DNA from: Streptomyces seoulensis
GTDB lineage: Bacteria; Actinomycetota; Actinomycetes; Streptomycetales; Streptomycetaceae
Length of the DNA stretch: 64,000 bases
NCBI RefSeq assembly: GCF_022846655.1
Contig: NZ_AP025667.1
Location: 5,617,001 to 5,681,000 of the forward strand
Direction of reading: 5' to 3'
Shown here: positions 50,980 to 52,906 of the stretch, piece by piece
Layout of the letters: each line of letters opens with the position of its first letter
How positions within the stretch are numbered: position 1 is the stretch's first letter
Notes under the pieces: model-generated
What the model saw: the letters and a program-made list of their open reading frames with translations, nothing else
What the model was told of the DNA's origin: nothing
Database searches by the model: none
Position numbers and translations under genes: made by a program

Positions 50980-50986
50980 CACCTGA

Positions 50987-51014
50987 CGGCCCCGGCACAG
51001 CCACGCCGGGGCCG
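50987..51014 (+). terminator. terminator after DUF397 gene
   Basis: Perfect 10-base stem CGGCCCCGGC/GCCGGGGCCG with an 8-base loop, 8 bases after the stop. Confidence 0.82.
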
Positions 51015-51034
51015 GCTCTCGTACCGCGTCCCCC

Positions 51035-51303
51035 TTGACGCCACCCCCCGCACGGGTACAGTGCAATGAGCGGCATGCCCCGCGCCCCTTTTTCCGGCGC
51101 CGGTGCCGCGTTCCTCTCCCAGCCCTCGTGCCGATGGTCCTCGACCCGGCCGGGCTTCTCCCGGATCACCTCATGACCAGGGCTTTCACCGCCCCGCGAG
51201 AGGTGTCGTTCCCGTCGCCCGGAGGCAGGCGTGTCCGCCCCTCCGTGATCTGCGGCCCCTTCCTCTTCTCTGCCGTTCCCCGTCCCGAAAGGACACCCCG
51301 ACC
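51035..51303 (+). promoter_or_regulatory. promoter and long C-rich leader of Rho-like gene
   Basis: TTGACG (51035-51040), 16-base spacer and TACAGT (51057-51062) make a plausible promoter, with transcription from about 51069. The ~235-base leader up to ATG 51304 is pyrimidine-rich (CCCCTTTTTCC, CCTTCCTCTTCTC), contains no convincing ORF, and ends with RBS GAAAGGAC. C-rich leaders are used for Rho autoregulation elsewhere. Together with the terminator above, this accounts for the 324-base gap. Confidence 0.55.
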
Positions 51304-52443
51304 ATGACCACCACCCTCGAACCCCCCACCCAGGTCCGGGACACCCCGGCCACCCGGACCGTCACCGGCGTCCTCGACATCGACGCGCACGGGAAGGGCC
51401 ACCTGCGGGCCGCCGCGAGCCTGCTGCCCTCCCCCGCCGACCCGCAGGTGTCACCCGCGCTGATCCGACGGCACCGCCTCCGCAAGGGCGACCTCGTCGA
51501 AGGCGTGAGCGGACCGCAGCGGGCGCTCACCGACGTCACCGCCGTGGACGGCCACGGCCCCGCGGAACATCGCAGAAGCTTCGGCGACCTGACCCCCCTG
51601 CACCCCCACCGGCGCATGCGCCTCGAACACCCCGCGTCCGGCCTGGCCGGGCGTCTCACCGATCTGCTCGCGCCCGTCGGCAAGGGCCAGCGCGGACTGA
51701 TCGTGGCGCCGCCGAAGAGCGGAAAGACCGTCCTGATCCAGCAGTTGGCCGCGGCCGTCGCCGGCAACCATCCCGAGTGCCGCCTGATGGTGCTGCTGCT
51801 GGACGAACGCCCGGAGGAAGTCACCGACATGCGCCGCTCCGTACGCGGCGAGGTGTACGCCTCCACCTTCGACCGGCCCGCCAAGGACCACATCGCCCTC
51901 GCCGACCTCGTCGTGGAGCGGGCCAAGCGGCGGGTGGAGGCCGGGGAGGACGTCGTCATCCTGCTGGACTCGCTGACCCGTCTGTGCCGGGCGCACAACA
52001 ACGCCTCGGCGGCGGGCGGACGCACCCTCAGCGGAGGCGTGGACGCGGGCGCGCTGCTCGGCCCCAAGCGGTTCTTCGGCGCCGCCCGGCAGGCCGAGGA
52101 GGGCGGTTCGCTGACCATCCTCGCCAGCGCGCTGGTGGACACCGGCTCACGCGCCGACGGCTTCTTCTTCGAGGAGCTGAAGGGCACCGGCAACATGGAA
52201 CTCCGCCTGGACCGGGAGCTGGCGGGCCGCCGCGTCTTCCCGCCCGTCGACATCGACCGCACCGGCACCCGCCGCGAGGAACTGCTGCTGGACCCCTACG
52301 AGTTGACGGTCACACGCGGCCTTCGCCGCGCCCTGCGCTCCCACGGGGACGCATCGCTGGAGACCCTGCTGCAGCGGATGCGGGAGACCCCGGACAACGC
52401 CACGTTCCTGCGCCGCGTGCAGCCGACCCTGCCGGCCGCCTGA
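51304..52443 (+). CDS. divergent Rho-factor paralogue
   Basis: 379 residues, much shorter than the main actinobacterial Rho. Motor is intact: Walker A APPKSGKT (about 134-141), catalytic Glu in LDERPEEVTDM, Q-loop SGGVDAGALLGPKRFFGAAR, R-loop KGTGNMEL, arginine finger in GTRREELL. The N-terminal cold-shock-like domain is present but its RNA-binding residues differ: the usual DGFGFLR is HGKGHLR and the tyrosine of YVSP is Gln. So it likely does not grip rut RNA in the standard way. It could be a specialised terminator or an element-associated Rho. A dedicated promoter and long leader precede it. Confidence 0.9.
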   Translation: MTTTLEPPTQVRDTPATRTVTGVLDIDAHGKGHLRAAASLLPSPADPQVSPALIRRHRLRKGDLVEGVSGPQRALTDVTAVDGHGPAEHRRSFGDLTPLHPHRRMRLEHPASGLAGRLTDLLAPVGKGQRGLIVAPPKSGKTVLIQQLAAAVAGNHPECRLMVLLLDERPEEVTDMRRSVRGEVYASTFDRPAKDHIALADLVVERAKRRVEAGEDVVILLDSLTRLCRAHNNASAAGGRTLSGGVDAGALLGPKRFFGAARQAEEGGSLTILASALVDTGSRADGFFFEELKGTGNMELRLDRELAGRRVFPPVDIDRTGTRREELLLDPYELTVTRGLRRALRSHGDASLETLLQRMRETPDNATFLRRVQPTLPAA

Positions 52444-52496
52444 GCGCCGTACCCGGCGGGTGGGGTGGCAGGCCGCGCCGCCACCCCGGGCCCGCG

Positions 52497-52691
52497 TCAG
52501 AACTTGATGCTGCCGATCATGCTGGCGACGTTCGTGGTCAGCTCGCTGATCGTGGGTGCGATGGTCGAGGAGGCGAGATAGAAGCCGAGGAGCATGCAGA
52601 TGGCGGCGTGCCCCCCTTTCAGTCCCGACTTCTTGATCAGCAGGAAGACGATGATCGCCAGCAGCACCACCGCCGAAATCGAGAGTGCCAC
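52497..52691 (-). CDS. small two-helix membrane protein
   Basis: 64 residues: ALSISAVVLLAIIVFLLIKK, then a Gly/His linker, LLGFYLASSTIAPTISEL and a short tail. Two transmembrane helices; resembles small proteins seen near transfer genes of Streptomyces elements, but no other transfer gene is present. GTG start with RBS GGAGGTGAG. Convergent with the Rho-like gene; function unknown. Confidence 0.7.
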   Translation of the reverse strand: MALSISAVVLLAIIVFLLIKKSGLKGGHAAICMLLGFYLASSTIAPTISELTTNVASMIGSIKF

Positions 52692-52906
52692 GGCGGCTCA
52701 CCTCCAATGAATCCCAGGGACACGGGGGGTTCGGACTATGGGGGTTGTGACTCGGTACAGCCCCGGCGGACCGAGCCCGAGAGCCAAGTCCACGCGGACG
52801 CCGCCAGGTTCATACCCACGCAGCGACAGTGATCATAACTATCCGTGCTCGCGCATCGCTCGGCGCACGGCCGCACAAGGGGGCGCATGGCCAATATGGT
52901 CGAGCC

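Follow-up and report, generated by a model that had tools for sequence, protein, structure and literature searches.

The rho2 gene and its product

The stretch of DNA analysed here, called the window, comprises 64,000 nucleotides (nt) of Streptomyces seoulensis and carries a gene, rho2, for a short second form of the termination factor Rho. The open reading frame (ORF) lies on the + strand, with its ATG at 51304 and its stop at 52443, and the product, Rho2, has 379 amino acids (aa). Pfam searches assign residues 21-84 to the cold-shock/OB RNA-binding domain (PF07497; 51364..51555) and residues 118-318 to PF00006, and give no match to Rho_N. Alignment places the Walker A motif PPKSGKT at 51709..51729, the catalytic glutamate (E211 of Escherichia coli Rho) at 51805..51807 and the arginine finger (R366) at 52270..52272. 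The best solved relatives by sequence are the Rho proteins of Mycobacterium tuberculosis and E. coli, and a structure model of the RNA-binding domain reaches a predicted local distance difference test score (pLDDT) of 90-94 in most blocks. A check for a second, full-length rho elsewhere in the same genome found one; its product, the main Rho or Rho1, is 62% identical to Rho2 in the motor domains.

Rho2 shares with Rho proper the RNA-binding domain, the RecA-like motor fold and the catalytic motifs. However, it scores 458.8 bits against the Rho equivalog model TIGR00767, under the curated cut-off of 509.45, and differs from members of that family in the absence of the Rho_N helix domain and of the aromatic pocket for YC dinucleotides, and in two Q-loop substitutions, P279A and S281G. 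The model NF041509 (paralog_Rho2, 'Rho, short form') likewise describes a short Rho paralogue, but Rho2, which matches it over its full length, obtains 457.9 bits against a cut-off of 628, and the main Rho of the same genome scores higher (577-580). Membership of this family was rejected on both counts.

As a kind, a second Rho protein is already known. According to a passage in PMC8269248, which cites D'Heygere et al. 2013, Actinobacteria often have rho duplicates, and one S. lividans duplicate is altered in its bicyclomycin- and RNA-binding domains in ways that may allow different modes of RNA binding. Duplicates with RNA-binding changes are thus in print, although the author of an earlier note on this DNA knew of no description of such a protein. 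Rho2 is likewise a second Rho in a GC-rich actinobacterium; the account in that passage lacks the clade-wide pocket pattern, the selection contrast and the structured leader described below, for which no earlier report was found in the open-licence literature searched.

Residues are numbered as in E. coli Rho unless a gene position is given. In the primary RNA-binding site, F62, F64 and Y80 are replaced by K31, H33 and Q48 of Rho2, and the loop holding E108-R109-Y110 is shortened, while the equivalents of R66 and D78 (R35 and D46) are retained. The alignment with E. coli Rho does not reveal the missing aromatics at shifted positions nearby. ORF and alignment thus agree with the earlier note, which had described a 379-residue Rho homologue whose stacking Phe and Tyr residues had become Lys/His and Gln. 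We take R66 and D78 to be the residues that hydrogen-bond the base, and the aromatics to form its enclosure. In E. coli Rho, passages of PMC12133298 and PMC1950744 report, Y80 contacts RNA, and F62S and Y80C weaken binding.

The replacement extends well beyond the window. Among the 120 closest proteins, that is, the closest among the matches listed, position 62 is Lys in 118 and Gln in two, position 80 is Gln in 112, and R66 and D78 are invariant (120 each). All 76 main Rho proteins with Rho_N have Y80; this set leaves aside six short proteins without Rho_N from a larger group of 82, which are the source of that group's one Ser337. In 21 Streptomyces genomes that encode both proteins, Rho1 always has Tyr, Phe, Tyr and Phe at 62, 64, 80 and 110. 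The corresponding residues of Rho2 are Lys (18) or His (3) at 62; His (14), Tyr (2), Leu (2), Arg, Thr or Gln (1 each) at 64; Gln (17), Thr (2), Pro or Ala (1 each) at 80; and Gln (10), Arg (6), Pro (4) or Ser (1) at 110. R66 and D78 are kept in 21/21 of both proteins. Judged from these alignments, the aromatic pocket is lost in the Streptomyces Rho2 clade.

The new residues are held to different degrees. In 49 near loci K62 is found in 48 and position 80 is of about average variability (Gln in 41/49), with positions 64 and 110 more variable than the average column of the domain; in 20 deeper loci residue 62 is His (8), Asn (5) or others. Catenulisporales-type paralogues retain F64 (87/87) and mostly Y80 (82/87), and the Streptosporangiaceae-type short forms have F64 in 2/36 and an aromatic residue at 80 in 0/36; these group names are taken from named members. 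The expectation that the same substitutions would be conserved across the clade therefore holds for K62 in the nearest clade, but not for positions 64 and 110 or for the Catenulisporales-type proteins. Since the paralogue groups keep different aromatics, and since parsimony on the motor tree described below counts 3, 6, 3 and 2 changes at positions 62, 64, 80 and 110, the pocket was dismantled stepwise.

The motor is conserved in its catalytic centre and altered in its RNA-contacting loops. The Walker A motif and the equivalents of E211, D265 and R366 are all kept in Rho2. In the 21 genomes K184, T185, E211, R212, D265 and R366 are present in every Rho2, and the catalytic residues are invariant in 120/120 of the closest proteins. 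In the Q-loop, E. coli VVPASGKVLTGGVD corresponds to ASAAGGRTLSGGVD, and in the R-loop DTGSKMDEV corresponds to DTGSRADGF; the main Rho of the same genome has P279, S281, M327 and E329. Of the 120 closest proteins, 118 have Ala at 279 and 117 have Gly at 281, compared with P279 and S281 in 76/76 main Rho proteins with Rho_N, and in the 21 genomes M327 is Ala in all Rho2 proteins and E329 mostly Asp or Gly. The earlier note called the motor intact, which is correct for the Walker A motif, the catalytic Glu and the arginine finger but not for the Q-loop and R-loop, which are present in altered form; nor is the central channel quite normal, as it had supposed, given P279A and S281G.

Pairwise Nei-Gojobori ratios of nonsynonymous to synonymous substitution rates (dN/dS) in the 21 genomes have medians of 0.468 for the RNA-binding domain of Rho2 versus 0.026 for that of Rho1, and of 0.215 versus 0.068 for the motor. 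By this measure the Rho2 motor is under purifying selection, and the RNA-binding domain is the part that has been freed or re-tuned.

A tree of the motor domains alone (89 rows, quick method, no bootstrap, 26 chosen main-Rho rows; L072, L113, L129, L136, L150, L151 and rows more than 93% identical omitted) sets 58 paralogue rows apart from main Rho with a Shimodaira-Hasegawa-like approximate likelihood ratio (SH-aLRT) of 93, and an inner group of 55 rows with 98. The predicted separation from the main actinobacterial Rho is thus recovered. L131, L125 and L138 lie outside this branch of 58 rows; like L116, they have long branches and unsure placement. When all 61 non-main rows are forced into one group, the approximately unbiased (AU) test does not reject the arrangement (p 0.145), and the paralogues may or may not stem from one duplication. 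A first alignment with E. coli Rho had dropped 19 loci through a strict motif, and three duplicates; a later one regained most and kept 152/158 rows after removal of identical or short ones, with L113, L116, L125 and L129 added back from the first and L130 unused.

Promoter and structured leader

Upstream of rho2, TTGACG-16-TACAGT at 51035..51062 (+) is the only promoter-like match within 50980-52760 (shuffles mean 0.0), in line with the claim that the gene has its own promoter; we take it to be sigma-HrdB-like. No intrinsic terminator was found within 50980-52760. The strict pattern TTGAC-N-TA...T occurs in 12/64 leaders, including that of the window, and in 11 of these 12 its distance to the start is 267-297 nt and its second element reads TATAGT or TACAGT, the ten leaders other than the window's having TTGAC...TATAGT.

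The window leader (240 nt) is rich in C, as the earlier note had stated, and poor in G, with 43.8% C and 26.7% G. Its C minus G value of 0.17 is reached by 2/69 (2.9%) of the control regions, which are upstream regions of predicted genes rather than proven leaders, while its best 80-nt stretch of C over G is equalled by 23% of them. Taken together, 64 Rho2 leaders have a mean C minus G of 0.161 versus 0.023 in the 69 controls (Mann-Whitney p 2e-17).

A hairpin, H1 (51067..51109, +), follows directly 3' of the -10 box, close to where the transcript is predicted to begin, and consists of two covarying helices. In 43 leaders, 96.9% of 387 cells are paired, and both sides change at 5/9 pairs in a total of 22 cells, a number reached in 0/500 shuffles and by no slid version (maximum 8 cells). 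G-U cells outnumber A-C cells by 12 to 3, other mismatches number 9, and the loop varies from 4 to 13 nt. The G-U excess and the variable loop fit a sense-strand RNA rather than a DNA operator. Two further stems are inferred: H2, CACCTC...GAGGTG at 51167..51205 (+), in which six of the seven positions form standard pairs in 34-42 of 44 leaders and the seventh in 28, and H3, GGAGG...CCTCC at 51221..51244 (+), recognised by eye in the alignment columns. A short stem, GTCC-CGAAA-GGAC at 51282..51294 (+), lies over the Shine-Dalgarno sequence; the window contains it once (shuffles mean 0.01), and its four pairs are kept in 44/44 leaders, two cells being U-G. Because this stem hardly varies, covariation is uninformative for it. 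With the pyrimidine tract that precedes the Shine-Dalgarno sequence, stems H2 and H3 give the appearance of a multi-part leader.

A covariance model of the hairpin, R1, which matches the window at 29.4 bits, was used to scan 41 genomes. In 14/14 other Rho2-bearing Streptomyces the top match lies directly upstream of rho2 (E 1e-11 to 1e-6); the training set included the window and 11 of these 14 genomes, with G001, G007 and G023 outside it. The remaining 26 genomes have no match better than 0.004. At E<=0.01 a match lies upstream of rho2 in all but one (L289) of the 80 nearest named loci, hence in 79, with one extra match elsewhere in L227; an exact training sequence occurs in 15 of the 80, the other 65 being without one. 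Weaker matches, ending 152-169 nt before the start, are found at the deeper Streptomyces paralogues L071, L072, L073, L075, L076 and L081 (E 9e-5 for L073, 0.1-0.6 for the others), and none at L074. Eleven main-Rho loci have no sense-strand match and two antisense ones. Twelve Catenulisporales and Streptosporangiaceae loci gave three weak matches, one on the opposite strand (L151) and two ending 25 nt upstream of the likely start (L132 and L133), all of which were rejected for their unfit position. In Rfam 15 the window leader has no match below E 0.59, and the leader of L257 none below 1.1.

A passage of PMC12133298 describes autoregulation of E. coli rho through rut sites, and a C-rich leader precedes the rho gene in both cases. 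The rho2 leader differs in having a covarying hairpin near its 5' end, with no Rfam match. By analogy, a Rho may exert feedback on the rho2 leader. The leader is a new candidate cis-regulatory RNA with a defined target gene.

Possible roles of Rho2

Rho is usually regarded as a single protein per cell. A second Rho that is widespread, with its crown pocket rebuilt and its catalytic residues kept, offers a natural experiment on the purpose of the primary site and on whether rings can work without YC recognition, which the E. coli mutants suggest they cannot. On the comparative evidence rho2 is an old, selected, chromosomal paralogue and does not look like a broken or mobile gene. The likeliest explanation, to which we give about even chances, is that its product acts as an auxiliary Rho whose RNA loading is altered and that the gene is controlled at the RNA level. 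Rho2 would then be a hexameric, RNA-dependent ATPase through whose central channel RNA is still threaded. With the aromatic enclosure gone, its crown would no longer select YC dinucleotides, although the R66/D78 pair stays, and RNA might be engaged with relaxed or different specificity, or Rho2 might be recruited by a protein partner or an RNA structure. It would serve, alongside the main Rho, as an RNA-release motor that is made under certain conditions, presumably in termination. The gene's own promoter, together with a leader that is conserved, structured and rich in C, suggests control of its dosage at the RNA level, with Rho2 or Rho1 itself as a plausible regulator.

Several observations weigh against this auxiliary role. 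Mutants of the primary site of E. coli Rho have termination defects, and PMC1950744 describes E. coli P279S and P279L as termination-defective. The Q-loop changes accordingly speak against termination of the ordinary Rho type and in favour of a motor whose coupling is altered, and they lower our confidence; combined, the loss of Y80 and the presence of Ala279 in 118/120 close relatives mean that Rho2 may be unable to terminate on its own. Among the residues that replace the pocket, K62 and, to a lesser degree, Q80 alone are conserved, and these in the nearest clade only, so that the pocket may in part have decayed because its function was no longer needed. Finally, the R1 match in the window has an E-value of 6e-4, about tenfold better than the next in that genome (0.0068).

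A first alternative is that Rho2 is a drug-insensitive spare, a target duplication that serves when bicyclomycin, a Streptomyces product, blocks the main Rho. G337S is reportedly one of the first bicyclomycin-resistance substitutions, which a literature search did not confirm. Ser occupies this position in most paralogues of four groups (95/120 closest Rho2, 79/87 Catenulisporales-type, 18/32 deeper and mostly Streptomyces, 36/36 Streptosporangiaceae-type), and in 0/76 main Rho proteins with Rho_N and 0/65 loci with F64 and Y80. This pattern bears on why Streptomyces withstand bicyclomycin. Also in favour of a spare are the bicyclomycin-domain changes of the S. lividans duplicate (PMC8269248) and the in vitro sensitivity of S. 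lividans Rho ATPase to the drug described in a passage of PMC6934819. Yet the window protein and 25/120 of the closest have Gly337, and position 337 changes 12 times on the motor tree, which makes G337S a property of many relatives and not of the window protein. We chose positions 208, 219, 266 and 337 as presumably bicyclomycin-related. Position 320 was added from PMC8828861. At all five the window protein has the E. coli residue. Moreover, 179/392 Streptomyces genomes have one Rho match alone in a genus said to be insensitive, and a spare would leave the lost RNA pocket and the leader unexplained. We regard this explanation as unlikely.

Alternatively, Rho2 subunits could join main-Rho rings as a modifier that tunes RNA specificity or activity. 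Such mixed rings are conceivable at 62% motor identity with kept catalytic residues; a subunit with neither N-terminal helix domain nor aromatic pocket would leave fewer crown sites per ring, and the Q-loop changes, which give this explanation more weight, would suit a subunit that slows or alters the ring. A poison subunit, however, could do without purifying selection on every catalytic residue, and the own promoter and leader suggest independent dosage; mixed rings thus seem rather improbable. That rho2 is a decaying duplicate without a job is very improbable: the relaxed RNA-binding domain (dN/dS 0.468), the absence of a second match in 179/392 genomes, and copies that are split (G339) or interrupted by an in-frame stop (the G533 and G672 paralogues) are outweighed by the motor dN/dS of 0.215, catalytic residues invariant in 120/120, compensatory changes in the leader hairpin and a length held at 373-393 aa in the 120 closest proteins.

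A wider proposal can be considered, although we think it doubtful: actinomycetes may have evolved a second Rho class that is loaded by a cue other than pyrimidine-rich rut sites (an RNA structure or a protein partner), is in most lineages shielded from bicyclomycin, and in Streptomyces doses itself through a leader recognised by Rho2.

Chromosomal setting and distribution

The usual downstream neighbour of rho2 is a D-alanyl-D-alanine carboxypeptidase gene (PF00768) on the same strand at a median distance of 116.5 nt. It is shared by 17/20 loci of a first set and 76/80 of the nearest named set; the latter are the best 80 of 227 and near relatives only, and some strains occur in both sets. This common chromosomal neighbourhood led us to reject an element-borne rho2, which the earlier note had suggested. 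In the window, as in S. griseoluteus and S. bauhiniae, rho2 lies between an XRE/DUF5753-DUF397 pair and an S9 peptidase gene, a location common to L220 and L221 only among the 80 loci. The closest homologue of the carboxypeptidase in the window's genome is located elsewhere (73% identity), and no tRNA was found within 40000-64000 of the window. Because R1 matches are present in the window, L220 and L221, and hence also at the alternative location, gene and leader appear to have moved together in this lineage. A 64-aa hydrophobic protein with no Pfam match is encoded at 52497-52691 (-) and is 98% identical in S. griseoluteus and S. bauhiniae.

In 392 Streptomyces genomes, at least two Rho-like matches were found in 211, one in 179 and none in two (G017, G233); five candidates were scored per genome, so that third copies may be missed. 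The single match of G391 is Rho2-like. The 211 genomes include other types of second Rho. In G105, G047 and G184 (L075, L076 and L081) a short form of 427-433 aa has GN(N/H)GFLR...DVQVP and a longer linker, and the gene beside it encodes a Clp-type ATPase, recognised by eye. G388 has a second, short (448 aa) main-type Rho (L079, 1471-2817, -) with an intact aromatic pocket and Asn for Ser266 (LLDNITR), a residue we take to be a bicyclomycin contact. The Rho2 match of G339 (contig C56, 283404-284542) consists of two pieces that overlap, as a frameshift or an error of assembly would produce, and the matches in G533 (L129) and G672 (L156) have one in-frame stop each. Beyond Streptomyces, second Rho proteins are present in Catenulisporales, Streptosporangiaceae and two further families. 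The short Rho paralogues P0249 and P0272-P0277, including those of Microbispora, Acrocarpospora and Herbidospora, have precomputed Pfam domains without the RNA-binding domain.
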